A stretch of 64,000 nucleotides of DNA from Mesostigma viride (Eukaryota > Streptophyta > Mesostigmatophyceae > Mesostigmatales > Mesostigmataceae): positions 2,179,315 through 2,243,314 of the forward strand of contig RPFO01000080.1 of the NCBI GenBank assembly GCA_009746045.1, written 5' to 3'. The translations under genes were made by a program, and so were the position numbers. This document shows, piece by piece, positions 831-63,945 of the stretch (position 1 is its first letter; each line of letters starts with the position of its first letter). A model generated the notes under the pieces. That model did not search any database, was not told the DNA's origin, and saw nothing but the letters and a program-made list of their open reading frames with translations.

Positions 831-2292
831 CTGGGGCGACTTCTACGCCAACCTGGTGTTTGACGCGCACCCCCTGGCAGATAGCGAAGTGTACGGGAAG
901 CTGCCGCCGCAGGCGACTGATCGCTTGGCCACTCGGGTACGCGCCGAATGCTTTTTCTTGTTTCAAGGCTAGAGGCTATAAGGGCTGCTTTGTGTGCATG
1001 TTGCAGGCCGGCTGGCCGGCAACGCGGGCACGCAAAGCTGCAGTGTTCCTGTTGGCTCTTGTGACATAACTACAGCACAATCCTGCTTGGTACTACCATT
1101 AGCCTTGCGTAGTCAGATTATAACTACATCACAATCCTTCTTGGTACTACCATTAGCATTGCGTAGCCAGTATTATAACTACATCACAATCCTTCTTGGT
1201 ACTACCATTAGCATTGCGTAGCCAGTATTATAACTACATCACAATCCTTCTTGGTACTACCATTAGCATTGCGTAGTCAGTATTATATCTACATCACAAT
1301 CCTGCTATAATCCCCTCTGTCCCCGCCAAGCCCCTCTGTCCCCTCCAAGCCCCCCTGTCCCTCCAACCCTCATGTATTCTCCAACGCCCCATGCATTCCC
1401 CGACCCCCCATGCCATCTCCTCCCGACATGCTCCCCCTTTCTGGCGATCGTGAGCTTAACCACTCGCCCCCCTCCCCCCAGACACCCCACCCCACCCCAC
1501 CCCACACACACCACCCCGCCCTTTTTCTCCTCTTCCTCCCCTTCGTGTCTTTTCCTCGCCGGTGCTATTCCGCCACATTGCCCCCCTTGCCCTAACATTG
1601 TCCCTTCCCCTGCCGCATCTCCCCCCCCTGTCCTAATATTTTCCCTTCCCACGCACATCTCCCCCCACCCCCTTGCAGGCCATCCTGAGCTTCCATGACC
1701 CGGAGAAGGACGTGCCACTGGAGTTGAAGGTCGGCAAGGAAAAGAGCCTCCAGCTCATGCTGCCCCGCCCGGCCGAGGTGAGCGCTCAATCATCAAGCTA
1801 GTGTGCATTATGATTATGCTGGCAGAGGCAATGAGCATGACAAGCAAGCACTTCAGTTTATTCATTCGCGGGCCGATGTGAGCGCACAATCAACAAGCTT
1901 GTGTGTGTCTATGTCATGCTGGCTGAGATGAGTGCAAGCATGCTAGCCTGGTCATCTGCTGGATGAGGTGAGGGTGTAAGAGGCTAAGGGAAGAGATTTT
2001 GTCTCTGAGGGCAAGCGGTTTACGTTTAGGGGTTAGGGAGGTAGGTTCTCTCCCTCGGCATTCTTCTTACTTTAGGGCCGCGAACTGACCTCTGGGACAA
2101 GGTGGGCTGAGAACGACCCTTTGAGAGCTCCAGACTTGTGAGCAAGACGTGTGTGTATGAGTTTTGTGTGTGTGGGCGTGGGCGTGGGCGTGGGCGTGGG
2201 CGTGGGCGTGGGCGTGGGCGTGGGCGTGGGCGTGGGCGTGGGCGTGGGCGTGGGCGTGGGCGTGGGCGTGGGCGTGGGCGTGGGCGTGTGTG

Positions 2293-2327
<35 letters not shown>

Positions 2328-5300
2328 TGCGTGTGTCTGAGTTTGTGCGTGCATGCATTCCGCTGGTGTGTGTATGCAAAATGTACGTGCGTGTGCGGGT
2401 GCTTGTGCGTGTGTGTGCATCTCCATGGGTGTGGGCGGGGGCGGGGGTGGGGGAGGGGGAGGGGGTGGCGGTGGGGGCGGGGGGGGGGGGGGAGGGGGAG
2501 GGGGAGGGGGAGGGGGAGGGGGAGGGGGAGGGGGAGGGGGAGGGGGAGGGGGAGGGGGGGGGAGGGGGAGGGGAGGGGAGGGGGAGGGGGAGGGGGAGGG
2601 GGGAGGGGGAGGGGGAGCGGGAGCCGGAGCGGAAGGGGAAGGGGAAGGGGAAGGGGAAGGGGAAGGGGAAGGGGAAGGGGGCAGGGGCAGGGGCGGGGGC
2701 AGGGGCGGGGGCAGGGGCGGGAGCAGGGGCGGGGGCAGGGGCGGGGGCAGGGGCGGGGGCAGGGGCGGGGGCGGGGGCAGGGGCAGGGGCGGGGGCGGGG
2801 GCGGGGGCATGGGGGGGATGTTTCTTTTTCCTGCTCATGTCTATTGCCTGTTGCGGATATTCTCCTCCTCTATCCACCCATCTCCCTGTTTTGGGTCCTG
2901 GTTTTTCATTGTGACGCACGCAGGTGGATGATGACAGCGCGGATGAGATGGAGTTCAACTGGGTGCGGGACTACCGCTACCAGGTACGGGGGATGCGTTG
3001 ACAACCACGTTATGGTATCGTGCTGAAGTAGATAGGAGCGTCTAAATATAGCAATAGTAGTATGCCAATATAGTATTCATAACAATGTAATAGATGAGGA
3101 CATGGCATGGCATGGTTTGGAGTACAACAGCGTGTGGGGCTGCTACTCGGTAACCCGCACGCGTGGAGCACCACGTTGTAACCTCAGTCTGCATCAGATA
3201 ACGAAGCTCTGGTATAGATTTGTGGTGAAGTGGTCGGCTTCCAGTGGCTCGAGGGTTTGTTCGTGGTATGGGCTACGAGCGGGTGGCATGGGCCGATGGG
3301 AGCCGACACGGCAGTTCCATGCATGGAAAATATTTGGGGGGAGGCTGTAGATTTTCCACATGGAACCCCCGGCTGGTTTCCGGGATTCTACAATTTCACA
3401 ATCCAACCCCCGTTTCAAAGCCGTCGAATATGTTGCGATGAGGAACCTTGGTTTTCTAACGAGATTCTTATTTTTCTAATGACATTAGCATAGTACTCCT
3501 TGGCATGCCCGTGCGCATGACACGCAAGTACTTACTTATGAGGAACCAGGGGCCGGATGCTTGGGGTATACTTGTGTACAAAAGCGGCTGTCTCGCTTCT
3601 TACACACGCCTGTGCAACTTGACGCAAACCTGTGCATCTTCGCAAAGCTGTGCATCTTTGCAAATCTGTGCAACTTCTTACTCGAACCTGTGCAATCCTT
3701 CTAAACTTCCTTGTCCTCCAGTGGCTATCTCGAGTTGAATATTCATGTAACATTTCTTGAATAGCAGTATATGTACTATCCTTATATAGATATTGTCTAT
3801 ATATTCTTTACGCCCAACCCATGCTGCTAACCGTGGCAAAGTACTGCTAACCCTTACCCCGCTAAACCTGTGCGTGGGTCGTCTCATATATCGCGGGTAC
3901 GTCATACGCACGTTGCTATGTCCTTATGTGCAGGTGAGGTGAAACCATATGTGCAGGACATGCCCGTGTGCATATCCTATGTATGTGCATGTCCTATGTA
4001 TGTGCATGTCCTACGTATCCTTCCCATCGTCATGGTATGCTCCCTTATGTCACTCAACACGATATGCATACGTGCAGGTGAAACCAGCATAGCATGTCAT
4101 GTCATGTCAGGTCACGTCTCATGATGTCATGTTCATGCGATTATGTCCTATATCCTGTGCAGGTGAAACCTGGACCTGCCGACCGCAACACTTTCTGCTT
4201 CGTGTTTGACAGCGACGGCGTGCGCTACCTGGTAAGGCCCACTTCCCCCTCGCGATGACGCGTGTGTTCTTTCATGATAGAATTCATGATGACCATTTTC
4301 TTCATCCATCTCCCCACTTAGCTCCTGCACGAGTGGATGTTTGTCACTCGGCTGCCTGCTTCGATGTTCAACATTTCCTCTCAATTGTTTGACCATTTTC
4401 TCGACATTTTCTTTTCATCTCTCTCGTTACCTTCGGTGACAAAGTGTCAAAGTGATAGAGAGTGTTTAGGTGTTTCCTTTTTCCTTTGACATGTTACATG
4501 CAAGCAAACCTTCAGGACCCCACCCCCCCGCCCCCGCACACACTGGTGACAGCAGTATGTCCGTACCTTCGTTGTTTCGTATCCACCTTTTTGTTGTTTA
4601 GTATCCACCTTTTTGTTGTTTATGGATCTCGGTTGTTTGTGTAGTTTGACCCATCACTCGCGCGTGCTCTTCTCATCGTTCTCATCATTCTCATCGGTTC
4701 GCCCTTCATCCGTGCATGCATCGTTGTTCAGTTTCTTTTTACCCATCACCAGCCCATGCGGAAACGGACTTTTGTGATGCACTTGCCGAAGTGCACTTGC
4801 TGAAGTCCACTTGCCGAATTGTACTTGCTCAAGTGTGATCGGTTATCGAGCTGTCCTTGTTTGTTTTGCTTGACCAGCCCGTGCGGAAACGGATACTCTC
4901 CCACATATCCGTTCCTGCGGACGTCCCTCCCATTCTTGCCAAAAGACCCTCTTTTCAAGGGGGTTGGCTTGCGGCAATATTGGGGATCTGTTGTTCCTTT
5001 GCACACGCGGATGATGGTGATCCGTTGCCCCACCGTTATGTGTTAATCACCCGTTTGGCATCCGCCTCGTTTCTACTTGCCCAGCCAATGCGCAAGCGCA
5101 TGATGATGAACAAGCTGAAGGCCAAGGACGGCAAGAACTTGGGCGAGGAGGTGGCCGACCCGCCGCCATCACGGGTAGGCAGTGAAGGGAGGACGCCTTT
5201 GGGGGGGTTCTTGATACATCCGTTGGATGCCTTAATTTAAATATGTGCACGAGGTAGGTACCGCCGCGGTGAAGCAGAGGCCTTAGGAAAATGTCAAGGG

Positions 5301-9671: not shown

Positions 9672-9902
9672 TCACGAGGGCACGGGGCCAGACGTGGGCG
9701 CGGCGGTGGCGGCCAGCGGCGCAAGCAGCAGGTTGCACGCGTCCATCTTGATGCTGACGGGGAGCGGGGGGAGCTGGCTGGTGGAGCCGACGGGGGACGA
9801 CAGCCTGGTAGGGGGGGGGGGGGTGGGTGAGGGTGAGGGTGAGTTGGTGACATTGTCATCAGGAAGGAAAGTAGAGCCAACGGGGGACGACAGCCTGGTA
9901 GG

Positions 9903-9933
<31 letters not shown>

Positions 9934-12632
9934 TAGGGGGGGGGTAGGGGGGGGGAAGGGGGGGGGAGTTGGTACGATTCTGTTCGGGGGAAGGCACATG
10001 ATCGCAAGCTTACCCAACCATTGCAACGAGGCAACCATTGCAACGAGGCAACCATTGCAATGCGGCAACCATTGCAACGAGGCAAAAAATGCAACGAGGC
10101 AACGATTGCAACAAGGCAAAAATGACAACAAGGCAACCATTGCAACGAGGCAACCCTTGCAACAAGGCAACCATTGCAACAAGGCAACAATGACAACAAG
10201 GCAACCATTGCAACAAGGCAACCCTTGCAACAAGGCAACCATTGCAACAAGGCAACCATTGCAACAAGGCAACCATTGCAACGAGGCAACCATTGCAACA
10301 AGGCAACGATTGCGAAGCCGTAGGGGGGGGGGGGGAGAAGGGTTGTGGGGAGTTGGTACCATTCACGGCCTATGTGCCCTGTGGTGTAGTACATTACACC
10401 ACAGGGCACAGAGGCCATGGGGTACACTAGGCTGGACTGTCTAGTTGTACAGGGTTAAGGGTTCCTACATTCCGGGTTACAAACGTGAAGGGTTATAGCT
10501 GTCTAGCGTACAAGGTCAAGGGTTGGGGACGTACCAGGCACGTGCACCCTGGCTAGCAGGCCATGCACTGCAAAAAGCCTACCACTCATACAGGGGCAGG
10601 GTTAGGCACCATCCCCACCCATCCATGCCAGGCCGCGCACGAGCGCAGAATTCACAAGCGCTGGACGCACAGCACGCGCTCACTCACCAGTTCTGGATGC
10701 AGAGGATGTTGTCGCGGCAGAGCGAGAGCTGCTGAATGTTCTCTTGCAGCTGTCACACCGCCATGTCATGGACACAACAGCACACCATGCGAGAACAAAC
10801 AACTCCCCAGCATGTCAATACAGTGGCATGTTTTCTTGCAGCTGCCACCCCGCCACGGCATGGACAGAGCCCAGCAGCACAAGTAACACCGCAGCAAGTC
10901 ACCATGTTAGCAATGACCACAGGACGCTCGCACGCACGCGCGCGCGCACACACACACACAGAGCGCAGCCGCAACAGCCATAACTATCAGAACACACACA
11001 CACAGAGCGCAGCCGCAACAGCCATGACTATCAGTACACACACACACAGAGCGCAGCAGCAACAGCCATGACTATCAGTACACACACACAGAGCGCAGCC
11101 GCAACAGCCATGACTATCAGTACACACACACATAGCGCAGCCGCAACAGCCATGACTATCAGTACGCACACACACAGAGCGCAGCCGCAACGGCCATGAC
11201 TATCAGTACACACACACACAGAGCGCAGCAGCAACAGCCATGACTATCAGTACACACACACACAGAGCGCAGCCGCAACAGCCATGACTATCAGTACACA
11301 CACACATAGCGCAGCCGCAACAGCCATGACTATCAGAACACACACACACAGAGCGCAGCCGCAACAGCCATGACTATCAGTACACACACACAGAGCGCAG
11401 CAGCAACAGCCATGACTATCAGTACACACACACACAGAGCGCAGCAGCAACAGCCATGACTATCAGTACGCACACACACAGAGCGCAGCCGCAACGGCCA
11501 TGACTATCAGAACACACACACACAGAGCGCAGCCGCAACAGCCATGACTATCAGTACACACACACACAGAGCGCAGCAGCAACAGCCATGACTATCAGAA
11601 CACACACACACAGAGCGCAGCCGCAACAGCCATGACTATCAGTACACACACACAGAGCGCAGCAGCAACAGCCATGACTATCAGTACACACACACAGAGC
11701 GCAGCAGCAACAGCCATGACTATCAGTACACACACACAGAGCGCAGCAGCAACAGCCATGACTATCAGAACACACACACACAGAGCGCAGCCGCAACAGC
11801 CATGACTATCAGAACACACACACACAGAGCGCAGCAGCAACAGCCATGACTATCAGTACACACACACAGAGCGCAGCCGCAACAGCCATGACTATCAGTA
11901 CACACACACACAGAGCGCAGCCGCAACGGCCATGACTATCAGTACACACACACACAGAGCGCAGCCGCAACGGCCATGACTATCAGTACACGCACACACA
12001 CAGCGCAGCCGCAACAGCCATGACTATCAGAACACACACACACAGAGCGCAGCAGCAACAGCCATGACTATCAGTACACACACACAGAGCGCAGCCGCAA
12101 CAGCCATGACTATCAGTACACACACACACAGAGCGCAGCCGCAACAGCCATGACTATCAGTACACACACACACAGAGCGCAGCCGCAACGGCCATGACTA
12201 TCAGTACACGCACACACACAGCGCAGCCGCAACAGCCATGACTATCAGTACACACACACAGAGCGCAGCCGCAACGGCCATGACTATCAGTACACACACA
12301 CAGAGCGCAGCAGCAACAGCCATGACTATCAGTACACACACACACAGAGCGCAGCCGCAACGGCCATGACTATCAGTACACACACACACAGAGCGCAGCC
12401 GCAACGGCCATGACTATCAGTGGCAGCGTCGCCCATCCCCGCGGGACACTGTGCGGCAGGCGCATATAGATTTCTGGCCTCCATGGCACACCTAGTACCC
12501 CATACCCCATACTACCCACCCATGTGGCAGTACACGCGCACATGCACACATATGCACACGCACACACGCACACCCACCCACACACACCCACCCACCCACA
12601 CCCACCCACCCACACCCACCCACCCACCCACC

Positions 12633-12695
<63 letters not shown>

Positions 12696-15600
12696 GCGCA
12701 CACACGCACATGGGCAAGAGAACACGTGGTCTGCGCTCATCCAACTAAGGCAAATACAGCGGGATATGTTACACGGAGGCACCACCTGCGATAATCGAAC
12801 TGGAACTGCGATACTAGACCCCATCTGCACTCTGGAAAGGCTTTCGAATGAACTGCTGTCAACCACACCACCGCCTGCGATACTACTAAAGGAACGGCTG
12901 TCAACCACCAAACCACACCACCGGAACTTGGTGATCCCGCAAAAGACCCGGCATAGGGCTCAGGGCAGCCTGCCTGTCTATGCACAGCCAGCATTTCATG
13001 CTTTCTTGCTATCCCAACTTGTTCTGCAGGTAGAGCTGTTAAGGCTGAAGAGTTTAAGATTTCAGAGTTCTATTTTGGGCTATCCAGTACATGCATCTTC
13101 AACGCCCCACTGTCATGTCCCCCAGGTTGAGCTACATGCGATGTTCAGCCCAGCCTCTTGTTCTGCAGGCTGAGCTGTTTAGGATGTAGGGTTAAAGGCT
13201 TAGGCTACATTAATTTATTGCGGTACCCAGTAAACGCAACTTCAGAGCCCCACCTTCATGTTCTGCAGGTTGACCTGGATGGCCTGCAGCACCTTTGCGT
13301 TCTGGTCCAGCAGGTTAGACGGGAATGATTCGGCTGCGGGGGGCAGAACAAATAGGCGAATCACATTTACCATATGAGTAGACATTATGCATTAGAGCAT
13401 CCTTGTCCAGCAGGATGGAGGGTAGCGGCTCGGCTGGGGAGGAAGAGTACAGGCAAGTGAGGCAGTCCGGTGTAGCCAGGCAAGTCTCATACATGAGTAC
13501 TCATGAATGAGTACACAGTATGGAATCATCAGCGATCAGAATAAGATATGGAGCAATCTAATCAATAACATACAATAATTAATTACTACTATATACTTCT
13601 ATTAATTTAGTTATGGGTACACAGTACTTCATGTATGGGGTCACGCAGGAGTGCGCCACCGAACAGCAGTAGGCAGCAATCGGCGAACCAGCTGGATGTG
13701 CTGAGCCAAACATTGGCGTTGATGGACAGCGAACAGTGTTGATTATACGACAAAGAGCACACTTGTCAAGCAGCTTACACGGACTCAGAATTCACACGGA
13801 CTTAGAACACGGTGGGGGTGAAACTAAGCCCCTAGACTTGTTCTCATTCCTCGCCTAAGTAGTTGTTCATGAGAGTTGCCATGTTTGCACATCAGCGGAC
13901 CCTTGAGCGTCCACGCGCCCGCCGCCCGCCTTGGTTCCACAAGTACTGCCCTAGCGCATGCCCCATCACATCCTCAATGATTCTATAGATAGAATAAGTA
14001 CTTTCTATTGCCCCTGCCCTAGAGCATGCCCCATCACATCCTCTATGATTCTATAGATAGAATAAGTACTTTCTATTGCCCCTCCCCTCGGTCCTGCACG
14101 CGTTGCGCAACCAACCCCTCGAAACCTTGGTCCAACCATTAAACTAGTAGTCCTCGCCTTGCTTTTGCAAGGGCGCTCCACAAGTGCCCGTCACCGTGCT
14201 TGCGCATCAGCGAACCAAAAAGTGGCCACGTGCCGGGAATTTTCGCCAATGTGCCAGGCTGCTCACCGTGGTTCTGCATTTGTCGCCCAATCCACCTTTT
14301 AACTACTGCTACTCACCTTGACTCTGCATTGACACCCAAGTAGTGATTCCTGCAAACACAACACATGCACCTCACAAATTGACAAACTCCCTTCGCCCTC
14401 ACCTTGGTTCTGCATCAGCACCATCGCCATGGCCCCACCCGACCCCATGGGGCCCCCATCCTGCGGGTGCAGCGGCTGCGCACGTGACCAAACAGGGCAG
14501 GGCGGGTGACAAGTGGGTTGATGCGTGCGCCAGTATTTAGGGGTCGGCGGAAGGCATACGGGTAGACAGCAGCACGCGCAGGTGCAGCGACTGCACATGA
14601 AAGCAGAGTGAAATATTTTTTTTCTTTGAAAGTGGGGTGGGGTGGGTGGGGGGTTGAGTGGGGGGGAGGGAGGGGAGAGGGGGGGAGGGGGATTCCACAT
14701 ATCAAAGAAGGCCAGAAACCAGCAAAAGATTTATTCTTACTCTTGTTCTCATCTAGTCTGCCGAGCGTGTTGCATGTTGGTGCTGGCTGGCTTGTGAGGC
14801 GCGTTGGCAGCACACAAGATCGCTTAAGAACGATGATTGTCAGTACATAAGAACGGCTATCGTGATAAGAACAGGAAACCCCCTTGCCCCCCTATGTGTA
14901 GCTGCCCACTGCCCACCTTCTTGCTGGCCACCTTGTGCACCGCGATCGCAGCACACAAGCTAATAAGAACGATAAGAATCTAAATAAATATCGGCAACCC
15001 CCTCGCCCTCCCATGCGTAGCTGCCCACTGCCCACCTTCTTGCTGGCCACCTTGCGCACCGCGATCGCAGCACACAAGCTAATAAGAACGATAAGAATCT
15101 AAATAAATATCGGCACCCCCCTCGCCCTCCCATGCGTAGCTACCCACTGCCCACCTTCTTGCTGGCCACCTTGCGCACCGCGTTGGCGTCCTCGCCCATG
15201 TTCTTGCGCTTGTTCGCCTCGCGCTGCTTCTGTGGCAGAAAGCGAGGGTGAGGCGAGACAGGAGGGGAAGATAGCCAGACTCATTAGTTACCTAGAGGGC
15301 AGGATATCTGATTAGTGAAGTGGCTGGCAGCTCGCCTCGCGCTGCTTCTGTGGCCACGAGGAAAAGACAAGAAAAGCAGGCAAAGTAGCTAGATAGCCCG
15401 TGGTTCAAGCTGATAGCTCGCCTGTTGCAGCGTCTGTGAGCGGTAGGCACGACGCCGGAAGGCAAGAAAGCGAGGTCTGCAAATAAATTGTTAGCCAGCT
15501 GCTTGATGGTCCACCTCACCCTATTTCTGCGATCAGAAGGAATAGACAGGAGAATGGCATCGCGGATGCGTGAATGGTTGAGACTGGTTGAGTGACCATT

Positions 15601-35541: not shown

Positions 35542-35547
35542 AAATAA

Positions 35548-37291: not shown

Positions 37292-37330
37292 GTCGCACTA
37301 CCATAGACGCAGCTATAAAACCGATATCGA

Positions 37331-37387: not shown

Positions 37388-37436
37388 CTGCCGACAGGCA
37401 TCCGTATCGCGTATACAACTAACCGATCTTTATTAA

Positions 37437-37835: not shown

Positions 37836-37860
37836 GTTATAATACGCGCGTGTGTTTTTA
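37836..37860 (-). promoter_or_regulatory. Promoter-like ACGCGCGTAT motif before the 132-residue gene
   Basis: On the minus strand, CACACGCGCGTATTATAAC ends directly before ATG. The same ACGCGCGTAT core plus an A/T run precedes the ATG at 40613 (CCACGCGCGTATAAAGAG). It is a shared viral-style core promoter candidate. Confidence 0.45.
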
Positions 37861-37944
37861 TATTCCGCGAATATATGTTTACTAAGCCGGGCGATCTACT
37901 TTGGGAGTGACCATCAAATTTTGTGTGCCGTACGTCATATACCC

Positions 37945-38502: not shown

Positions 38503-38540
38503 ACACAAATATCTCTGCGTATCGTGCATGACTCGCTCGC

Positions 38541-39077: not shown

Positions 39078-39106
39078 TCGATACTATAACCTCATCATAC
39101 TGATGT

Positions 39107-40613: not shown

Positions 40614-40645
40614 CTCGTGCTCTTTATACGCGCGTGGGAAAATTA
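40614..40645 (-). promoter_or_regulatory. Promoter-like ACGCGCGTAT motif before the 40613 gene
   Basis: On the minus strand, TTTTCCCACGCGCGTATAAA then GAGCACGAG leads into ATG. It shares the ACGCGCGTAT core with 37836-37860. It also looks TATA-box-like (GTATAAAG). Confidence 0.45.
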
Positions 40646-40954
40646 ACGCGCCACCCCGCACACTATCACCCCCATACACATAGCGGCATGACCGGCGACG
40701 ACGGCTGCACGCACGCGCCCACGAACTCGCACATCAGACGCGCCTCGGACAACCAACCCGGATGCATCATGGCGCGCCACTAATATGCCGAACGACGAGA
40801 TTATTTTAGCGCGACCATAAACGCACGCACACCGCCAGCGGAGACTGACACGGACTTGCCGACGTACTCACACACTCGCACACTCGTACTCTCGATCACG
40901 GACTCGCGCGCGGGGGACAGACAATCACGCGCGGGGGGAACAGGGAAACAGACA

Positions 40955-41035
40955 AGCACTCGGCGCGGAACGGGGGGACACGCTGCGGGGGCGCGGAACG
41001 GGGGGGACACGCAGGGGGGAACAGGGGGAAAAGAA
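40955..41035 (+). repeat. G-rich short tandem repeat at the right edge of the island
   Basis: GCGCGGAACGGGGGGACACG occurs twice (about 40957 and 40989), with a partial third copy. It lies between the virus-like genes and the host ferric reductase gene and may mark the insertion edge. Confidence 0.7.
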
Positions 41036-51316: not shown

Positions 51317-54300
51317 TCATCTCTCGCTAAAACCGGGTAACCACCCGGTTGTCTGGCCATAGTCCAATCCATCAAAGTCACCAGTACCCAGCACTGCAGG
51401 GCCGACACCTGGGATTGTCCCATTGGCATCCCAGGTGCTCGTGGGCTCTTCCATCTGCTCCTTGACTTCCTCCATGGGCTCATTGTCCACCTCATTCCCT
51501 CCGTATTGTTGGCCTGCCATGCCCAGTCATGAAACGAACAAGCGCAACAAGTCGGGTAGGTCAGACTAGCAGGAACAACACCACAAGAGGTGGAAAGGGC
51601 CAAGAAACATTGCGACCCCATGCACCCTCCGGCGCTGCGACTCACAAGAAATAAATGAGTGCGCCGATCAAGTAGTGATGGCGCCAATCGGTGTTACTTT
51701 TAAGCAGATGCAGCTCAGGTGCAGTCAATCATCCCTTCCATACTGTGATTCTTATAGTGATCGTCCCCATAATGTTTGGCCCATCAAACATGTAAAGGCC
51801 AAGTTCTCCCTGGCTCGGTGAATGATGATCATTCTACAACCCACAGGTAGGTGCCTCACTGTAGGTTTGTTTTCAAAGCCTCCAAGAGCCACCAAGAGCC
51901 TCCACAAGCCACCAAGAGCAGGGTTGCTAAAACGGAAGTAAAATTATGCGGTGTTGCAAAGTGGTAAAAAATCCTTCAAACATAATAAAGACCTTACAGG
52001 AATTGGCCTCTGACCTTTTACAAAATCGCCATGATAGTAATTCCCACCTCACCAAGTGAGCTCATACCGCAAGGCCATCGTCAACTACTAGGAACTTCCT
52101 AGCGGCAGATTTACTGTAAGCTTATTTCACAAAAAAACACGCGATAAAGCAGTTCATTGAAGCGTAGGTTGACGTTCGCCCAATGCGCTGGTGCAGCAGA
52201 TTTACCAGTCCTTCACCTTCAGACATGAACTAATACTATATAGCAGCACTATCACCCCCTTATTCCACTTCACTTGGGGTCAACTTCACATCGGGTCGAC
52301 TTCACTTGGGCACATGCTATATACAGCAGCGCGCTCACCGTAGGTCTCGCGTCCGATGGGTGGCGGCACCGCGCGGTCATCCGGCCGTTGCCTCACCCAG
52401 AACTTTGTCATGTGGTCGTTGCTGCCGCTGCTCAAGGGGCAAGGCCGCCAGAATAAGCATATGGGGAGTGCAAGCAAGCATGCATAGGGCGAGCGCCACG
52501 GTCATGTGGTACTTGCTGCCACTGCTTGGCATCACAGCATCGTTACGCGTAGATCGACTAGGACAGCGACAACATGCATCAGCAAGCAGGACGAGACCAT
52601 GTGGTCGTTGCTGGCGCTGCTCATGGGGCAGGGCCGCCAGTATTAGCATGCATAAGGCCGCCAGTATAAGCGTGCATAAGGCCGCCAGAATAAGCATGCA
52701 TGCATGCATAAGCCAGAAAAGTGCAACAAGCATACCACTAGCAGATAAAGAAGAACTTGGTTGTTTCTACCGCTTGTCAGGGAAAGGTCGTCGCCAGTAT
52801 AAGCAAAAGGGATTGGAGATAAGCATGTACTACAATTGAGTTTAAATGCAAAGGACTTGGGATCGTAGCTGTCAAAGCTGGGGGCCGTCCCCCAACGCTC
52901 TGCAAGGGTGACCCCCCCACGGAAGTCACTTTGTTGCAGAGTAAGAGCCCCCAGAGGAATACGCCATTGAAGCAAAATATGCCAGCACCATTACACAAGT
53001 CCAAACTAACAAGATCAAACTAACATAACTGATAACATGATGAGTAAGCATACCTAAGACCATGATGAGTAAGCATACCTAAGACCATGATGAGTAAGCA
53101 TACCTAAAAACATGATGAGTAAGAATACCTAAGACCATGATGAGTAAGCATACCTAAGACCATGATGAGTAACCATACCTAAGACCATGATGAGTAACCA
53201 TACCTAAGACCATGATGAGTAACCATACCTAAAAACATGATGAGTAACCATACCTAAAAACATGATGAGTAAGAATAACTAAGACCATGATGAGTAGCAT
53301 GCTTTGAGCCAAGGTCGTAAGCACCGGCTTATGAGCATGAGTACACAAGTGAGCATGCTGTACTAGGCCAAAGCTAGTCGCGAGCACATGCGATAGATAG
53401 TACTGACATGCGTTACAAACACCGGCACATTCAACAACCAACACAGGAAGCCAGCTGGCACTAGAAGGCCCGCCCAGGACGCGGCCCGACGTCATAAACA
53501 TCACTGTGTCCGTAACTAAGCTGTTGAAGCCAGCTGGCACCGCCCACCTGCACAGGATGTGGCCCAACGGGTGGAAGGCGAGGCTCCAAACGCTGCTCTC
53601 ATGTGCGCCAGTCACCTCAACCTGTGGGGTGGGGAAGCTGCCGTAGAAAAGTAACGGCAATAAGGAGGACAAGGAGAAAGTAGAAGAATGAACGGCCACG
53701 AGGAGGACACGGAGAAAAAGCAGAAAAAGGAGGCAGCAGAAGACGGAACGGCCAGAAGGAGGAAGCAGAAGAACCAACAAGATGCAAATTAGGATGGGGT
53801 TGGAGCATGGCGAGTTGCCACATCCAAATAGTGCGCGGGAATGCTTCCACGAAAAAAGGTCTGGTGTGCTACACAGGTCCTTCACCAACGTCTGGTATGC
53901 TGTACAGGTCTTTCACCAACGTCTGGTATGCTGTACAGGTCTTCCACCAACGGCTGGTATGCTGCACAGGTCTTCCACCAACGTCTGGTGTGCTGTACAG
54001 GTCTTTCACCAACGTCTGGTATGCTGTACAGGTCCTTCACCAACGTCTGGCACGCTGTACAGGTCTTTCACCAACGTCTGGTATGCTGTACAGGTCTTTC
54101 ACCAACGTCTGGTGTGCTGCACATGTCTTCTCAAGTGCATAACAAAGCCAAGAGTGAAGGGAGCACCTCATGTGCCAGTCACAGGGACCAAATGATCAAA
54201 CTCCAACAGGGTTTGACTTGTCACTTGTGAAGCCTTGCAAGTAGGCCTTCTGTCGTGATGGCAGCAAAGTCAACAAGGGAGCACGAGCATTCTACCGCAG

Positions 54301-57300
54301 ATGCCAGCAATACCGGAGGATAGCTAGGGCGTGGCCTTCCATAGCACATAAGTACATACTACAAGCATGTCACGGGAACGCGCACGCTACCTCATGTGCC
54401 AGTGGTAGACAAGGATAATAAAGCATACGCCTTCAAACAGGGGAATAGGGGAAGCCTTCTACCTCATGTGCCAGTGGTAGATGGCGCCGTCGTAGCTGCC
54501 GCTGACAAACACCTCCTCTTGCACGGGGTGCCAAGCGATCGCTGCAGAGGGCAGAGGGAAAACCAGGGGAGAAGAACTTGTCGGGCACTAGTCATGACTA
54601 AAGCCATCGTGGGCGCCACGCGATTGCTGCACAGGGTGAACCGAGCCCATGGCCAGGGACATGAATGAGAGGGGGCATCGATCATAGCAATCGTCTTCTA
54701 CTACCATCGTCCTCTATTACAATCGTCTTCTACTAGAATTGTCTTCTACAGCCGTGAGGTCGTTGCGAGAGATTTGGCCGAGTGAAGAATTTCATGCATT
54801 GATAAATCAGAAACCGTCCGTCAGATGTAGAAACCATTGGCCCGATAGCTAGGTCCATACTTTTCTACACAGCAACAAATTTTCTACAAAGTGATTCCTC
54901 CTAAAATAGGGGATCCTCCTTGTGGCCGAGCTGGGAAGCAAGTTCGAGGACAACAGGCACCAGAAAGGTTTTCGCAGCAGGGGATTGCTGCCAGGAGGCA
55001 AGTGGGGAACATTATAAAGCAACATCCTAATTAATTACTGCGTTCCATTCCTATATTCCATTTATAAGTCAAGCATAGGTATAATGTAAGGCACACAGCG
55101 AGCGCTCTCTACAGCCAAGATGACGCTGCCACAGAGGGGCAAGGCCGCAGAGACGGCCAAAATCTGGTAGAGTAAGGACGTAAACTGCAACGGTGTGCGA
55201 TGCCAGAGGGCAGCGTAGGGTGGGGAACTCACAGGAGACCTAATGGATGCCAATAGATCACTGGATAGGTCACTAGGATTACAACAAAAGCTTTGAAACG
55301 AAAAGCGTGTGAGGGGCGAAACGAAGGCGAGGGTGAAAAAGAACTGAAGGTTGCAAGAAAACAGCGCTGCACAAAAACAAGGCCATTTCTCATGAATTGA
55401 ATCGACAAGCTGACGAATCAGCCCTTCCAGCTCTTCTGTTATACTTGTGCCAAACGACACAAGAGATTATTAAAAGGAATACGAGTACCATCTTCATTTG
55501 GGTAACAATTGATGGAGAAACGTACATATCATCATCTCTTGTGGCGATAGCCAACACGAGCCAAGACCAACACGAGCCAAAAAACCAAGCATCAGTATGC
55601 ATGCTCTTATGTTGACACACGACACAAGGATGGAAAACCGTTACTTACTGAAACAAGCTTTCGAGATGGGGTTAGTTTTTGACACAACGTTGCAGGTTGT
55701 CATCTCTTCTATAGGCAACCTTAGCCAAAATGAAGCAGGAGTACGGATGCCCTTGTGTTGACACGAGACACCGATGGAAAACCGTTACATATTGAAACAA
55801 ACAAGGAACACAGCAGTAAGCCCGGATGCTATTCCTCTCGGCAAGGGATGCTGCTTTATGAGAAACATAGAAGTCGCCTCTTCGGTTGAGCACCAGCACG
55901 AAACAACCGACCAACACCAAGACACACACAAGAATGTACTGGTCACCTCATTTGTGAAGAACAGAGAGGACAAACAGACACGCCGAACAGACATGGCCAA
56001 CAGACACAACGAACAGGCACGCCAACCTGACGCAAGAAACGAAAGGATGCAAGGGGGCGTACCGGTCACCTCCCGGTGGTGGCCGCGGTACGTCGCCATC
56101 TCTCGCATAGTGCGGATGTCGTAAACCTGGCGGCACGACATGATAAAGATGGTACACAATAAACAAAACAAAGATCGCGTGACACAGTGAACATCATACA
56201 CTAGTAAAAGGGTGAAAACAAACAGAACATCACATAATACATCAAGCGCTGCATAATATACTAGAACATCATATAATACTGCAAGGGTGCAAGGGTGATG
56301 AAACGTCGTCCACCTGGCAGGGCGACCAAAACAAATAGAGCATGAAAGCATGGATGACATAGCATGAAAACACGTAGTCCATACGCAAACCCTCACCCTG
56401 GTAGTAGTATGCCTTTATGTCTCAGCCCACCCGTAATCGCTTACTTATTGCTTACTTGTATTTCATATCACCGGCCTCGCCACCTGCCAGGATACAACAC
56501 CGACGCCAGCAATAAGCTTCAACGGCACTTTACATGAAGCGCGATGCCCACCCATTACATGGGTGGGATTACATTTTACCCACCCATTACATCACTCACC
56601 TTGACGAGCACATTCTACCTACCCATATTGTAGCAACAGGCCTACAATTGTGTACAAAAAAGCATAAGCAGCGCCGACCCCTCAACTTAAACGAGCGCGC
56701 CCCTCTATTTGGAGAGCCACAAGGTGCAAGGCTCTAGGCCACACGTCTCCTGATGCCGCCCGCATCCGTTTGAGTGCTGGCCCACAGTAACGTCCCAACA
56801 GCTGTGACTCCCGTTCACTAAAATATTTCCAAAGAAATCCGATTGTTGAATAGTTGGGTTATATTCCAACACCAGCATCAGCAGCAATGGACCCCTGCCC
56901 CTCACCTTGACGAGCATGTCGCGGGATGCCGAGAGCACCCAGTTGCCGTTCTGGTTCCACTTGACCGACATGACGGTATTCTTGTGGCCGTGCCTGTGGG
57001 GTCATGCCAGGCAATATAGCCACCACAGCAGATGATATAGTGACCACAGCAGATGATATAGTGACCACACCAGATGATATAGAGACCACAGCAGATGATA
57101 TAGAGACCACAGCAGATGATATAGTGACCACAGCAGATGATATAGTGACCACAGCAGATGATATATATAGATATATAGTGACACAGCAGTGATAAGCGAC
57201 TACAGCAGATGATAGATACACAGTGACTGGAAACTATATAAACATAGTAACAAAAACCACACTACCATATAATGACAAAAAAATTGTTCATCACAAGAGA

Positions 57301-60300
57301 GACATGATGGTGTTCTTCTGGCCATGCCTGCGTGATCACATGACAGATAATATAGTGACCACATGACAGATAGGATAGTGACGAAATGACAAAGGAGACC
57401 ACAAGGAGACGAAATGACAAAGGAGACACCGTGAAAACAATGGACAGCAAACCCCCGATACTGGTAACGACAAACTTGTCACTACCGAGGCGACCTGCAT
57501 CTACCGAACTTCAGCTACGCTTCGAAATGCTCATGCCTCCGCACGCGCTTGGTATCGAGTACATTCAGTTGCTTAAAAGTTTTGAACTCAACCACTTGGT
57601 CAAAATTGGGGCTGGATTTCCAAAGCATGGGCGCCGTGGAGAGCACGAAGAGCTGGGGAGTTGTTTCTCGCCCTTGAGTTGCCATATACCTAATGCGTGT
57701 ACCTCATACCTCGCAAGTGGCCCCGACCACTTTCTTGCATTACCTTTTGCATGTGGCTTCAAGGGGCAGTAGCAAGCCTGATTACATCGTGGACAGGCGA
57801 GACAGCTGACAGGGGACCTGGCAGCGCGATTGCTGCCAGGCAGATGTCTCTCGTGCGCGCTTTGCACCGACACCAATGAAAGAGATGAACGAAATGGGGA
57901 CATTACGATAAAAATTGGGACCATTTGTTCCTTTCAAGCCACCAAAAGGGCAGCATGGGACACCTCTCACCAACGCCTCTCTAATCACCTATGGTTTTGG
58001 CAACCTTTCACGAAGCGAGGGCTTTAAGACTTCCACTGGACAGTTGCTTGTTTCCTCCCAGAGAAAACAAGGCGAACCCATTCCTCTCACCTTCTTCTCC
58101 TCGGGCCTTTATTCTCACCCAGACAATTGTAAAATATTTCATCGATCAACTCATTGGAGGCGTTTAGATGAATTTACCAAGATGAATCATTACTTGATTG
58201 GGGGGGGGAGGGGGGGGAAAGGGGAGGGGGGGGGGGGGGGGTAACGTCATCCCATTGAGTGTCTCAAAAACGTGCGAACGTGCATATGCCTGGTGGGCAC
58301 GTACAGGGTGTTTATGCTGCTCCCCGACGCAGGGTCCCAGAACTTGATCAGGTTATCCTTCCCGCCCGACACCACAAGTGCCTTTGTGGGGTGCCAGTCG
58401 ACACACTTGACATCCCAGCCGTGGCCTGATGTTGTATTGTATTGTATTGTATTGTATTGTATTGTATTGTATTGTATTGTATTGTATTGTATTGTATTGT
58501 ATTGTATTGTATTGTATTGTATTGTATTGTATTGTATTGTATTGTATTGTATTGTATTGTATTGTATTGTATTGTGTTGTGTTGTATAGAATAGTATTGC
58601 ATAGTATTGTATTGTATTGTATTGTATTGTATTGTGTTGTGTTGTGTTGTATAGAATAGTATTGCATAGTATTGTATTGTATTGTATTGTATTGTATTGT
58701 GTTGTGTTGTGTTGTATAGAATAGTATTGCATAGTATTGTTTGTATGCATTTTTGTACACGTGTGTATGTGTGTGGTTGTGTGTGTGGTGGGGGGTTGAG
58801 CAGGTGGGGGAGAGAGAGAGGCAGAGAAAGAGCGAGAATGGGGAGTGTAAGTGTACATGTGTGCCGATGAGGGGTGGAGCACATAGGCCTGGCCTTATCA
58901 CCCACTATATAGTAGTACTACTTTAATACTAGTAGTGTAATACTACAATACCATATAATATCTAGTTTATATTTTGTCGTGTTTTGCAAACTGATCCAAG
59001 GCGAGATCCAGTCTAGCTCATGCCATCAACCACGCCCACCTCACCCGCCAGGAGCCGGCCACCTCCTCACCTAAGTCTGCCCACGAGGCGGGGGAGGAAC
59101 CTCACGATGCCACCTGTCCTCCAAGCTCATATCCACCTCACATCATCCAGACATCTCCTCGCACGCTACCAGGTAGGAAAACCCGTGGGGCGTTCTCTGC
59201 CAGGAACAACTGCTTTAGTGTCGCCCTTTCCTGTAAAGTTTATGTCCATTTCGGAGTGCCCCAAAGTCACCACCAGTCAAACCCACCTCACCAGCCTTGA
59301 GCTTGCTGTCTACTGAGTCCGTACCAGACCTGCCGCCACATGGCACCACCTGGCAGAGGTGCCACCTCATGGCACCACCTGCGATCTCATCACCTCGACT
59401 GGTCCAGCACTCACACCTGTAAGGTTCATGTCCACCTCACACCGCCCAAAGTCCCACACTAACAGGAAGACTGTCCGCCCTCACTGGTCAAAACTCATCC
59501 ACCTTTTTAGAGTAAGACGAGTCCCCACCTGTCAAATTCATGTCCACCTCGCACCGCCCAAAGTCCCAAATCTTCAGACTCGTGTCATCAGAGCAGGAGC
59601 AGTACTTGAGGTCGGTGGGGCAGAAGCTGCGCGCGAGGGCAGCACAGACATACCAGCGATGTCATGGAGGCAGGATGCGTGATACCTAGCAATGAAGCAG
59701 TCCTGTGCGTGGGCTTCAGGTCGTTGGGGCAGACGCCGAGGGCAAGGATTGTAAGAAAGAGAACAGGGAAAACAGCACGGGGCTTCTCATGCGCTCTTGT
59801 GCTCTTTCTGTGCTCATGTGCTCTTTTTTCTGAGAAATATCAAATCAAGTTAGTACTTGTATTGGTATTATTTGGTGTCGCCTGCATGGACCTGGGGCCG
59901 GTCGGGCAAACGCTGCGCGCAAGAATAAGAGAAGTACGAGATGGATGGGGAGGGAAAGTGAGCATGCAACACGCATAAATCAGCGGGCAAGAAGCTGAGG
60001 GCGAGGACAAATAGAAACACACAAGAGGACGAGGAGGGGCACCCATTGTATAATGCGTGAAATGCGTGAGATCGACTGGTGAGGGATTGGCCGGAACATG
60101 AGGGACAGTAGCCAATAAAGCCAGAAGATAAGCAAGCATCCCCGTATAAGGCAGATTGATAACGGGATGGGGCTGTAGCCAATAAAGCCAGAAGATAAGC
60201 AAGCATCCCCGTATAAGGCAGATTGATAACGGGATGGGGCTGTAGCCAATAAAGCCAGAAGATAAGCAAGCATCCCCATATAAGGCAGATTGATGACAGG

Positions 60301-63300
60301 ATGGGGCTGTAGCCAATAAAGCCAGAAGATAAGCAAGCATCCCCATATAAGGCAGATTGATAACAGGATGGGGCTGTAGCTGGGTGTGAGGAGGACAAGG
60401 AATAAGCCATTTTACGAAAGCATGACGGTAGCATTGCCATTGGTATCAGGTAGATGTAGAGCGTTGGCATTAACATAGCTTGAGGCATTGGCGAGACCAC
60501 AGCTCAGAGGCAGTGGCAAAAGCACAGCCGTAAGGTGTTGGCACAAAATAACCGTAAGGTGCTAGGCTCTAAACGCCGTACCTAAGGCCTCGCACGGCCT
60601 CCTTGTGTGCGGATGGGTTGGCCTTTACGTTGTTCATGTTGGTCTGCCAGTACCTGCAGGTAAGGGGAACAAGAAGAGAGGAAAAGGAAATCATGGCAAT
60701 CTCCTCCGTTGTGTCATCAGTACGGTTGCTGCCAGTACCTGCAGGAAGGGAAAGCATGTTCGGCATACAGGGACTATCACAGGCACGGGGCTACCACTGC
60801 CATAGGGCTCATCACAGACAGGGGCAACTTCTTGGACATCAAGCTCCACTCCCCCCTAATCCACAGCTGGCTCGAGATTCATCACAGTTGGGGCCACCCC
60901 ACAGACTAGAAGCCAAATCCCATAACTACATACGCTTGGAACCTTATTAGACTGAATCTTGTTCCCATATCTACATACGCTTGGAACCTTATTAGACTGA
61001 ATCTTGTTAGGATTGATCATGACATACATGCTACAGAGGAGACCAAGGCAGCCCAGCCAAGTGTGCTCAGAGTGAGGGGCCATGCAAGCTTACCTGCTGT
61101 ACAGCTCTCTGACATTCTCTAATATTGTAGGAATCTAGATTCTTTAATGCAGTACCACTGTGGTATAAGTCAAATGTGAGGGTCAGATATAAAACGCTCG
61201 ACCCATTACGTGCCATCTGAACAACCCATGAAGCCACAGCAACACGGCTGCCTTAAGCCCGTCCATACACGCGCTTGGCTCCCCCACCAGCCAACACAGA
61301 AAAGGAAGCACATGCCACAGGAAATGGGTCCAGGATTCCTGGGCTGATATGGCTTGACGATTAGTTTCGATACCATTTCCACGCCCCACTTCCTTATGAC
61401 CCACTGCCATACCCCGCCCCAATAAGCATAGCACGGCGTGGTTCTGTAAGACAAGGGTTTGACGTTTACTACTTGCGTTTTGTTGCGTCCTCTTACTCTG
61501 TAACATCCATTCATTCCTTGTCACCACCCACTTACGTCGATGTGGCTCCACCCCCCTGGCACGCCGCTGGCGCCGACCACTGTGCCTATTTGTGATGATT
61601 AGAAAGGCAGCGCCCCGCTTACTTTATGCATCCGCCGTCGTCCCCCGTCACCATCCAGTTGTCGTTGTGGCTCCAGCACATGGCACGCACCGCCGTGTCG
61701 TGTGCCTGCAGTTCGCACAAAAGGAAAGATTGTTAGATATAAGGAGGGCCTGGATGATTATGATTATGATTATGATTATGATCATGATCATGATCATGAT
61801 CATGATCATGATCATGATCATGATCATGATTACGATTACGATTACGATTACGATTACGATTACGATTACGATTACGATTACGATTACGATTACGATTACG
61901 ATTACGATTACGATTACGATTACGATTACGATTACGATTACGATTACGATTACGATTACGATTACGATTACGATTACGATTACGATTACGATTACGATTA
62001 CGATTACGATTACGATTACGATTACGATTACGATTACGATTACGATTACGATTACGATTACGATTACGATTACGATTACGATTACGATTACGATTACGAT
62101 TACGATTACGATTACGATTACGATTACGATTACGATTACGATTACGATTACGATTACGATTACGATTACGATTACGATTACGATTACGATTACGATTACG
62201 ATTACGATTACGATTACGATTACGATTACGATTATGATTATGATTATGACTATGGTTTGGACATGGGACGAGCAAGAGCATGAAGGCTTTTCCACTGGTG
62301 AGATGCCTGTGGTGAAATGCCTGTGTTTTGCCACCCGGATATCTACAGGGGAGAACAAGCTAACCGGTAGGTATACTGCCAGTAAAGACGAATGAACAAG
62401 GCTGCAGGGTCAGCACCGAAAGTGACCGGATAACTTGGTTGAAGGTAGCTTTGAAAGGACCTACATCTCATCCACCCATAGGGTTGAAAAACAAAAAACT
62501 AATGGTGCCACAACGCCCACTCCCGCTACCACCCTCCCCCTCCCCCCTCCCCCCTCCACCCCAGAGAAAAATTTACTCAGTTTAATAGGGATTACCAGGC
62601 TTTTGAGTCGGTGATTTCAAAAAGAGCAGCGTCAAGGGTGATGCACGAAATTAGGCATGTGCCCCACAGCACAATGAACTGCTTTTCCCTCCATCTCAGT
62701 TGCTTGGGCCAGCTATTCCATGTCCTCATGCTCTGTGACATACGTAAAGGATTGTTGTAATCTTTCCTGAATACAAACCTTTGAGAATTGTTACGACACA
62801 GGCTGATTGGAGCTCTACTTATTTTTCAACTAGCATCACATCGCACAATTGCCTTTGTTAGAAAATCAGCAGGCCGGGTAGCTTTCTGCATGTACTTTTG
62901 TCGGTCGGCAACATGTCCGGCACCTGCGCATGCTGTCGGACACCCAGCTTCTCTGGTTTCAAAATGGAAAACTATGAACCCTAACCTACACCTAACCCTA
63001 AGCTACAAACCTTAGGTATAAACCCTACGTAACAAACCCTAAGCTACAAACTCTAACCTGTAAACCCTTGTCAACACACCCACCTGCAAAATCGTCTCAA
63101 AGTTGAAGGACTGGCCGTTCCATAGCGTGAACTCGCCGCTCATGGTGCCCGTGATCAGCCGTCGGCCCTCGGGTGTCCACTGCAAGCACGTGTACACGGA
63201 GAGGGAGCAAAGGAGACGAGGGAAAACTAAGCAATAAGCAGCGACTGCATAAGGGAGAGGAGGAGAGCCAGAAAGCGGGTGTCCACTGCAAGCATACAGA

Positions 63301-63945
63301 ACTCGAGAGATCAAAAGAGAGGAGCATAACTGCATTCCATTAGAGCAGGAGCATATAAGCAGGAGCATATAAGCAGGAGCATATAAGGAGGAGCATATAA
63401 GGAGGAGCATATACGGAGGAGCATGGAAGGAAGCATGCAGGCCATGAGGGAAAAAACAAGAGCGTGAGGCAGAGAAGGGGAGAGCCGTAGAAAGCATGTT
63501 TATATCCCTTGCCAAGCCCGAGGGCAAGTATAAGCATCGACAGGGACAAGGGATCGCGAATGCATGCAACATACAGAAGAGCACAGGAGGAGGCTCGCAC
63601 ATCGTGCAGGAGCAAAAGGGAGAGTAGGAATCAGTCATGCTACTACGGTAAGTACGTAGTAGCCATGTGTAGCATAAAAGGGAGGACGTAAGCATAAGGA
63701 AGCATGGGGAGCATGGACACCATGCAAAGCAAAGCAACTCCATACAAACCCGCCATCTGCAACGCCACACTCCCCTGAATTCTGCGCCCGTGAAAGCATG
63801 GAAACCGTCCGGCAGAACTGCCACATGCGACACAGCTCACCTGCACCACATTGATGGAGCATCGCATCTTGTTCATGCTCTGGTGGACGAACTTGGACGC
63901 AAAGCAGCCCCCTGGCAGGTGCTGGTAGCATCGCGGCGGCAGGAT
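51317..63945 (-). CDS. FY: FY / WDR33 homologue, WD40 subunit of mRNA cleavage-polyadenylation machinery (12 exons, 5' partial)
   Basis: FY (Pfs2/WDR33) recognises the polyadenylation signal region within CPSF in the nucleus. Exons on the minus strand: 63841-63945, 63084-63179, 61623-61705, 60582-60653, 59529-59626, 58305-58425, 56906-56993, 56063-56126, 54463-54541, 53548-53621, 52339-52427 and 51317-51513 (stop). Signature blocks in order: [196 protein letters not shown]; and the tail [12 protein letters not shown]. All phases fit except between 54463 and 53621, where one exon of 3n+1 length (about 22 nt) appears to be missing. The C-terminus is short compared with plant FY, lacking the long Pro-rich tail. 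The N-terminus lies beyond 64000. Confidence 0.9.
52500..52650 (-). repeat. Copies of the FY exon border at 52427
   Basis: The exon end reads, on the plus strand, CATGTGGTCGTTGCTGCCGC. It recurs as CATGTGGTACTTGCTGCCAC (52504) and CCATGTGGTCGTTGCTGGCG (52598). AAGGCCGCCAGAATAAGCAT, from the adjacent intron, also recurs at 52672. A roughly 95-bp unit covers the acceptor side. Confidence 0.75.
53033..53300. repeat. 25-bp tandem repeat, about 10 copies
   Basis: ACCATGATGAGTAAGCATAC then CTAAG, with variants AACC and GAAT. In the FY intron between exons 52339-52427 and 53548-53621. Confidence 0.9.
53445..53505 (-). repeat. Copy of the FY exon border at 53548
   Basis: GAAGCCAGCTGGCACTAGAA then GGCCCGCCCAGGACGCGGCC at 53449 mirrors GAAGCCAGCTGGCACCGCCC then ACCTGCACAGGATGTGGCCC at 53527. 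It includes the donor side of the exon. Confidence 0.75.
53870..54130. repeat. 30-bp tandem repeat, about 9 copies
   Basis: CACCAACGTCTGGTATGCTG then TACAGGTCTT. Open frames here repeat YRSFTNVW or similar and are artefacts. FY intron. Confidence 0.95.
54155..54410 (-). repeat. Copies of the FY exon donor side at 54463
   Basis: CTACCTCATGTGCCAGTGGTAG (exon end, 54459) recurs as CTACCTCATGTGCCAGTGGTAG from 54389 and as GCACCTCATGTGCCAGTCAC at 54164. Together with the acceptor-side copy near 54614, copies flank the exon on both sides. Confidence 0.8.
54610..54640 (-). repeat. Copy of the FY exon acceptor side at 54541
   Basis: GGGTGCCAAGCGATCGCTGC then AGAGG at the exon is echoed as GGGCGCCACGCGATTGCTGC then ACAGG at about 54610, 70 bp away. 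Confidence 0.75.
56585..56630 (-). repeat. Copy of the FY exon donor side at 56906
   Basis: CTCACCTTGACGAGCAC (56596) echoes CTCACCTTGACGAGCATGTC (56901). It is short, but keeps the GT donor. Confidence 0.6.
57010..57180. repeat. 21-bp tandem repeat, about 8 copies
   Basis: AGCAGATGATATAGTGACCA then C, with a few substitutions (CACCAG, AGAGAC). FY intron, next to exon 56906-56993. Confidence 0.9.
57295..57350 (-). repeat. Copy of the FY exon acceptor side at 56993
   Basis: GACATGATGGTGTTCTTCTG then GCCATGCCTG (57301) mirrors GACATGACGGTATTCTTGTG then GCCGTGCCTG at the exon (56967). It continues into intron sequence (CAGATAATATAGTGACCACA versus CAGGCAATATAG). Confidence 0.8.
58433..58742. 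repeat. TATTG pentanucleotide microsatellite with higher-order blocks
   Basis: TATTG repeats, interrupted three times by a GTGTTGTGTTGTATAGAATA / TTGCATAG block spaced about 80 bp apart, which shows higher-order duplication. Open frames ([19 protein letters not shown]) are artefacts. FY intron. Confidence 0.97.
59115..59470 (-). repeat. Three decayed copies of the FY exon donor side at 59529
   Basis: The exon edge, plus-strand text ACCTGTCAAATTCATGTCCA then CCTC, recurs as ACCTGTAAGGTTCATGTCCA (59416), TTCCTGTAAAGTTTATGTCC (59229) and CTCCAAGCTCATATCCACCT (59119). CGCACCGCCCAAAGTCCCA versus ACACCGCCCAAAGTCCCACA extends the match into the exon for the nearest copy. Spacing is 110-190 bp. Confidence 0.8.
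59705..59930 (-). repeat. Two decayed copies of the FY exon acceptor side at 59626
   Basis: ACTTGAGGTCGGTGGGGCAG then AAGCTGCGCGCGAG (exon, 59605) recurs as GGCTTCAGGTCGTTGGGGCA (59713) and GACCTGGGGCCGGTCGGGCA then AACGCTGCGCGCAA (59889). With the donor-side copies, one 98-bp exon is flanked by at least five copies. Confidence 0.75.
60107..60375. repeat. 67-bp minisatellite, 4 copies
   Basis: GTAGCCAATAAAGCCAGAAG starts at about 60107, 60174, 60241 and 60308. FY intron. Confidence 0.95.
60727..60750 (-). repeat. Copy of the FY exon acceptor side at 60653
   Basis: GCTGCCAGTACCTGCAGG (60728) echoes TCTGCCAGTACCTGCAGG (60643). Identical AG acceptor context, 85 bp apart. Confidence 0.75.
61753..62252. 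repeat. GATTAC hexanucleotide microsatellite (about 490 bp)
   Basis: Starts as GATTAT, then GATCAT (about 8 units), then about 66 GATTAC units, then GATTAT. It lies 48 nt upstream of exon 61623-61705 in transcript sense, in the intron after exon 63084-63179. The frames encoding YDYD, TITI, NRNR and VIVI are artefacts. Confidence 0.97.
62980..63075. repeat. Degenerate CCCTAA/CCCTAAA (telomere-like) string
   Basis: ACCCTAACCTACACCTAACC, CCTAAGCTACAAACCTTAGG, ACCCTACGTAACAAACCCTA and similar follow one another for about 90 bp, ending at the donor of FY exon 63084-63179. Confidence 0.65.
63270..63297 (-). repeat. Copy of the FY exon acceptor side at 63179
   Basis: AAGCGGGTGTCCACTGCAAG then CATACA (63276) echoes CCTCGGGTGTCCACTGCAAG then CACGTG (63168), about 108 bp away. 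Confidence 0.8.
63338..63428. repeat. 15-bp tandem repeat
   Basis: GGAGCATATAAGCAG / GGAGCATATAAGGAG, about 6 copies. FY intron. Confidence 0.9.

Follow-up and report, generated by a model that had tools for sequence, protein, structure and literature searches.

Tandem duplication is a well-established source of new introns, according to a case study and a review (PMC4974935, PMC3443670). In the potato RdRp gene, a duplicated intron-exon structure includes the branch site and the polypyrimidine tract (PMC4974935). In human genes within segmental duplications, the boundaries between exons and introns carry variable tandem repeats, which are described as adding splice sites and lengthening introns (PMC2812944). 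The results presented here concern a 64,000-nucleotide stretch of the 439.9-Mb genome of the green alga Mesostigma viride (C1106:2179315-2243314), referred to as the window. They reveal that introns of three genes in the window, PAF1, FY and a gene initially labelled DUF3755, contain short copies of the exon edges that border them.

The M. viride copies resemble the human repeats in that tandem units straddle exon-intron boundaries and in the involvement of minisatellite expansion (PMC2812944). The human repeats are young, variable arrays in recently duplicated genes, whereas M. viride has many single, dispersed and decayed copies in old housekeeping genes. Intron gain by tandem duplication likewise involves local duplication that includes splice signals (PMC4974935, PMC3443670). 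Intron gain, however, yields a new intron, whereas the M. viride intron stays in place and gains copies of its own exon edge. New introns flanked by direct repeats offer a further likeness, since repeats around unrelated filler resemble those M. viride copies that lack homologous flanks; there the direct repeats flank a whole new intron, whereas in M. viride they are exon-edge copies within an old one. An interferon-induced human gene reportedly contains a minisatellite with multiple splice donors. Its donor in each unit would be like the 48-bp array in a CCT chaperonin gene described below, and it is said to be a single gene rather than a genome-wide pattern. No description of systematic exon-edge copies was found in the literature searched, as judged on titles and abstract openings, and they are unmentioned in the keyword passages of two M. 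viride genome papers.

The gene models were rebuilt with seven exons for PAF1, 12 for FY and seven for the third gene, giving 23 complete introns. All three have open frames, and their introns are 661-2504 bp long; the mean intron length of M. viride has been published as 1142 bp (PMC6947507). PAF1 is on the plus strand, with seven exons inside the window, and its product matches the Pfam family Paf1. FY is on the minus strand; over the 386 residues compared, the protein read from its model does not differ from an annotated M. viride protein (JGI Mesvir1). Another annotated FY isoform (P0002) continues past the exon 10 donor into the intron (window 53229-53637). The third gene is also on the minus strand; its initial label was not confirmed, as no Pfam family at E 0.001 was returned for the protein encoded by exons 2-7, and it is therefore written here as the "DUF3755" gene. 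One of its introns contains a minisatellite of 34 units of 44 bp (window 10948-12421).

For each of 47 edges (24 acceptors and 23 donors), a junction probe of 40 nt of exon and 10 nt of intron was aligned with its own adjacent intron, of which at most 500 bp were used, and same-side segments of other introns served as the control. Mean own-intron scores were 27.5 for acceptors and 25.8 for donors, compared to 14.7 and 15.5 in other introns, and none of 20,000 permutations reached the observed own-intron mean for acceptors or for donors. The 99th percentile of other-intron matches was exceeded by 21 of the 47 edges (13/24 acceptors, 8/23 donors), which bears out the claim of the first-pass annotation that at least fifteen edges are copied in these genes. 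A score of at least 30 was obtained for 16/47 edges in their own intron and for none of the sampled other-intron pairings. Copies on both sides of FY exons 59529-59626 and 54463-54541 and of "DUF3755" gene exon 13254-13333, reported in the same annotation, were also recovered.

The copies are specific to edges. With arrays masked and a score of 24 required, 20/46 junction probes found a match, compared to 2/34 exon middles, 30/419 intron-interior tests, 16/431 intergenic tests and 4/69 self tests of long exons; exon-only probes matched in 11/47 cases and intron-only edge probes in 8/37. Thus neither control introns nor exon middles, the two comparisons that the first-pass annotation had regarded as decisive, match as often as edges. 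Outside arrays, the direct-repeat pairs of the three genes (score 26) comprise 28 that extend over a junction, 14 that lie wholly inside introns and four that touch an exon without including a junction. No inverted pair was found at a junction in the same search, and inverted pairs elsewhere account for six rows, in which each pair is counted twice. The fraction of positions covered by local direct repeats is highest next to the junction, with 0.41 on the exon side and 0.38 on the intron side. At a depth of 50-60 bp in the intron it drops to 0.07, at 70-100 bp, where many copies lie, it is back at 0.31-0.38, and past 100 bp it is 0.10; 20 of the 47 junctions are covered. Matching by chance or through the splice consensus is excluded by the other-intron permutations, the exon middles and the inverted controls. 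The exon-edge copies in adjacent introns are real.

Each copy consists of an exon edge and its splice signal, with a median of 19 nt of exon and 8 nt of intron (Table 1). The lengths are 14-63 bp, with one copy of 120, and the offsets of the 28 junction pairs are 72-368 bp. Sixteen of these 28 offsets fall at 70-125 bp; this cluster is not clearly special because 4/14 interior pairs fall there too (p 0.11). In the 24 copies found with exon-only probes, the acceptor A at -2 and G at -1 were each matched in 10/12, the donor G at +1 in 11/12 and the donor T at +2 in 10/12. The match to the real edge fades toward background 5-8 nt into the intron.

Table 1. Exon-edge copies and a junction-spanning array in the three genes, in window positions
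Gene	Feature	Real edge	Position	Strand	Identity and remarks
PAF1	Acceptor-edge copy	831	724..758	+	33/35
PAF1	Donor-edge copy	1777	1871..1927	+	48/58, intron part included
PAF1	Donor-edge copy	2983	3118..3177	+	44/63
PAF1	Acceptor-edge copy	4163	4072..4085	+	14/14
"DUF3755" gene	Acceptor-edge copy, last exon	9804	9871..9896	-	24/26
"DUF3755" gene	Acceptor-edge copy	10749	10828..10866	-	34/39, flank homologous
"DUF3755" gene	Donor-edge copy	13254	13018..13133	-	86/120, including 97 nt of intron
"DUF3755" gene	Second donor-edge copy	13254	13149..13177	-	24/29
"DUF3755" gene	Acceptor-edge copy	13333	13402..13446	-	34/46
"DUF3755" gene	Donor-edge copy	14403	14262..14279	-	17/18; another at 14312-14329
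"DUF3755" gene	Tandem array over donor, 119 bp x 2.6	15155	14877..15182	-	Exon end and intron
"DUF3755" gene	Acceptor-edge copy	15229	15332..15354	-	23/23
FY	Acceptor-edge copy	52427	52501..52526	-	23/26
FY	Second acceptor-edge copy	52427	52598..52630	-	31/33
FY	Outer donor-edge copy	54463	54165..54179	-	15/15
FY	Donor-edge copy	54463	54387..54409	-	23/23
FY	Acceptor-edge copy	54541	54611..54636	-	22/26
FY	Donor-edge copy	56906	56595..56610	-	16/16
FY	Acceptor-edge copy	56993	57301..57330	-	26/30
FY	Outer donor-edge copy	59529	59230..59268	-	30/39
FY	Donor-edge copy	59529	59414..59456	-	39/43
FY	Acceptor-edge copy	59626	59714..59747	-	27/34
FY	Second acceptor-edge copy	59626	59890..59923	-	27/34
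FY	Acceptor-edge copy	60653	60729..60753	-	24/26
FY	Acceptor-edge copy	63179	63276..63294	-	19/19

The pattern reaches beyond the three genes, and recurred when the test was repeated elsewhere. CCT chaperonin genes were chosen solely by Pfam PF00118 (58 matches), and in six of them splice sites could be assigned for 17 of the 29 gaps used between consecutive matches. At score 24, 8/34 of these edges had a copy, comprising 7/17 donors and 1/17 acceptors (1.5% and 0.4% in other introns), and at score 30, 5/34 had one. One CCT acceptor has an evenly spaced series of copies at -87, -172 and -256. A further 23 edges, at the ends of family matches and in two more genes, gave 8/23 at score 24 and 5/23 at score 30 (1.3% and 0.9% in other introns); two of those eight matches have offsets below 50 bp and may be low complexity. 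An exon predictor trained on the three genes, which at a similar threshold recovers the exact limits of 14 of their 21 known internal exons, returned 134 exons of mixed quality in the flanking 200 kb. At score 30, 14/262 of these edges had a copy (6/132 acceptors, 8/130 donors), compared to 1/263 middles and no inverted match, with the caveat that the other-exon control in this set may draw the same exon. The contrast is weaker at score 24 (edges 25/262, middles 13/263, inverted 10/525). Four of the 14 strict matches lie on the plus strand at most 6.4 kb upstream of the window; they probably belong to the 5' part of PAF1 itself and are therefore not fully independent.

Two fresh head-to-tail arrays span a junction, at donor 15155 and at one CCT donor, and dispersed single copies occur without such an array. 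The CCT array has 10.1 units of 48 bp with 97% matches (L028 4683-5169, on contig C1702), and each unit combines an exon end of 31 nt with an intron part of 17 nt that includes the donor. The array is inside an uninterrupted open frame (4312-5207); because the frame stays open through the array, splicing from a donor farther downstream would lengthen the product in frame by 16 residues for each unit. Contigs C1641 and C887 carry two copies of one CCT gene, which in their aligned parts have 2.1-2.4% substitutions and three indels of at least 8 bp. One of these indels, by which the allele-like pair differs, is a 43-bp tandem duplication (98%) inside an intron, a sign that local duplication is a live process; as the sequence reads, it does not derive from the nearby exon edge. 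Approximately 3.1 kb of the C1641 copy (L032 about 3446-6569) is absent from the C887 copy (L033). A search for a second copy of the locus without exon-edge copies, made with one FY and one CCT stretch, found none.

Mismatches between the exon parts of copies and the real exons number 26/244 at codon position 1, 22/238 at position 2 and 40/241 at position 3 (p 0.011), or about 10% at each of the first two positions and 17% at the third. This would be expected if the copy decays freely while the exon changes mainly silently, and the codon-position mismatches give no sign of protein-level constraint on the copies. GT is retained in 28/35 donor copies; the loss of 7/35 is of the same order as the mismatches at positions 1 and 2, and therefore the copies look unconstrained. 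Pyrimidine content is 0.678 upstream of acceptor copies, 0.696 upstream of real acceptors and 0.509 upstream of other YAG. YAG at matched distance have 0.591 (n = 14), from which the acceptor copies differ marginally (p 0.046), and this control weakens the proposal that acceptor copies are kept for their pyrimidine tract. We read the copies as dead duplicates rather than maintained decoys.

The best explanation, which is probably correct although far from secure, is that local direct duplications spanned the junctions and that the products were spliced out and then decayed neutrally. Short local direct duplications and minisatellite-type expansions would recur across M. viride exon-intron junctions, and the duplicated exon edge with its splice site would end up in the intron and be removed by splicing, since the spliceosome would use the site that adjoins the exon, probably through exon definition given the short exons and long introns. 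Nothing would maintain the intronic copy, which would therefore decay at the neutral rate while the exon persists. Repeated events would leave a series of dead copies and an intron that is longer near its edges. We infer that splicing ignores the copies and that the introns grew by such duplication, and likewise the molecular step itself. The first-pass annotation had proposed tandem duplication across the junction followed by decay. The arrays over donors, the homologous flanks of some copies and the decay without coding constraint agree with this proposal, but its plain form is insufficient, as flank homology is limited to 11/37 copies in the window and to half of a selected set.

Several observations weigh against the best explanation. 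The intron flank is homologous to that of the real junction in 8/32 window copies, or in the 11/37 just given when mismatched pairs serve as the null; as a set, the window flanks are more alike than permuted pairs. Among 20 better copies picked by hand from all sets, 10 have flank homology at p <= 0.01. The other 10 have no detectable flank homology, with two borderline (p 0.057 and 0.063), and their exon parts are 275/300 identical. Simulated tandem copies lose flank similarity in 1% of cases at 10% one-sided divergence, 9% at 15% and 28% at 20%; plain tandem duplication is therefore insufficient for copies so well preserved. Uniform tandem duplication with neutral decay, when simulated, yields 0.08-0.17 junction events per interior event, and the observed ratio is about 0.6 or more. 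Comparison of the 28 junction pairs with the 14 interior pairs and 19 interior arrays (period at least 20, our own count from the repeat table, two low-complexity rows excluded) gives a figure for junctions that is about 4 to 10 times the expected one. For the CCT genes, with 34 junctions, 13 kb of intron and lighter masking, there are 14 junction pairs, 15 interior pairs and no inverted pair at a junction, an excess of about 4-fold by scaling. Divergence does not always increase with distance from the edge, the copies of FY edge 52427 matching 23/26 at 94 and 31/33 at 189, and a strict outward ratchet is therefore unsupported. Few CCT acceptors are copied, and none of the seven edges in the other two gene models of the window has a copy, these models being uncertain. 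Finally, the 18 donor pairs that differ at +3 to +6 score 0.37 for copies and 1.53 for real sites, compared to -1.07 for equal random changes, making the altered copies stronger than random change predicts (P 0.002); silent change at the real site, or some maintenance, could be the cause of this intermediate strength. Neither the junction excess nor the lack of homologous flanks in roughly half of the copies is explained by junction-spanning duplication and neutral decay.

Both features would be accommodated by a copying process that favours junctions, in which segments of approximately 20-50 nt centred on the junction, comprising the exon edge and the splice consensus, are templated into the nearby intron without their flanks. 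Template switching at splice-like microhomology, or the involvement of nascent RNA, is a possible route. We consider this process a tentative alternative, clearly less probable than the best explanation. It is consistent with the high identity of the flank-less copies, the excess over the uniform model, the rapid fading of the match within the intron and the mostly unique spacers. A common inserted element was not seen among 18 spacers, which share one weak pair; spacer matches in the window are of low complexity apart from one weak match and one local repeat. However, clear junction-spanning arrays exist, other copies do have homologous flanks, the short intron part is partly a selection effect, and inverted junction copies, which template switching or end-joining often leaves, are absent. 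In its broader form the idea is that M. viride splice junctions are hotspots of short-range copying of edge-plus-splice-site segments into the adjacent intron, such that an intron would lengthen from its edges and preserve a datable fossil record of its own junctions. This form, too, is possible rather than likely.

Ordinary local tandem duplication without any junction preference, with the excess arising from masking, gene choice and counting, seems doubtful. The genome is certainly rich in tandem repeats, with 70 rows in the repeat table of the window, and unmasked intron interiors self-match in 28% of 591 tests. Junction and interior pairs are about equal in the CCT genes, and the 70-125 bp offsets do not clearly set junction pairs apart. 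However, masked interiors match far less often than junction probes, the simulated detection lifetime of junction copies is just 1.06-1.16 times that of interior copies, and junctions remain several-fold over expectation even when the 19 interior arrays are counted. Selection for the copies as decoy or regulatory splice sites is very improbable: AG or GT is retained in most copies, the upstream sequence is pyrimidine-rich like that of real acceptors and altered donors are stronger than random change predicts, but the similar rates of coding mismatch and GT loss and the marginal pyrimidine difference argue against it. Introner-like or transposon insertion was rejected, as no shared element was found when the 18 spacers were compared with one another and with the window. 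The geometry of intron gain, which would place an edge copy at the far side of the intron, was rejected as well, with 1/46 far-end tests positive at score 24 and reaching 25.

The remainder of the window contains additional open frames. Annotated gene Mv07129 (46092-48866) has a model that looks incomplete; database protein P0121 matches three exons and contains part of a ferric reductase NAD-binding domain. Long GC-rich open frames are clustered at 35500-41000. Five of the six scanned have no Pfam family at E 0.01, and the sixth has weak AAA-type matches. An open frame at 31773-32717 has a weak match, under the curated cut-off, to zf-RVT, a reverse transcriptase zinc-binding domain, and a 352-aa open frame on the minus strand at 29486-30541 has a histidine phosphatase domain.

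The process is known; its scale and frequency are unusual, and it most likely consists of junction-spanning local duplication and neutral decay. What sets it apart from the known cases is how many edges of old housekeeping genes are affected, together with the many single copies that are decayed and dispersed and an apparent excess at junctions. Intron lengthening is usually credited to transposons and simple repeats. In M. viride, a sizeable share of exon edges has dead duplicates, which would document, with dates, how introns grew close to their splice sites. The copies also raise a question of splicing, as the CCT array offers the spliceosome approximately 10 nearly identical donors at 48-bp intervals. 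Most deserving of further attention are the excess at junctions and those copies whose flanks are not homologous. Were junctions truly preferred as sources, this would suggest that local DNA duplication is connected with transcription or splicing.

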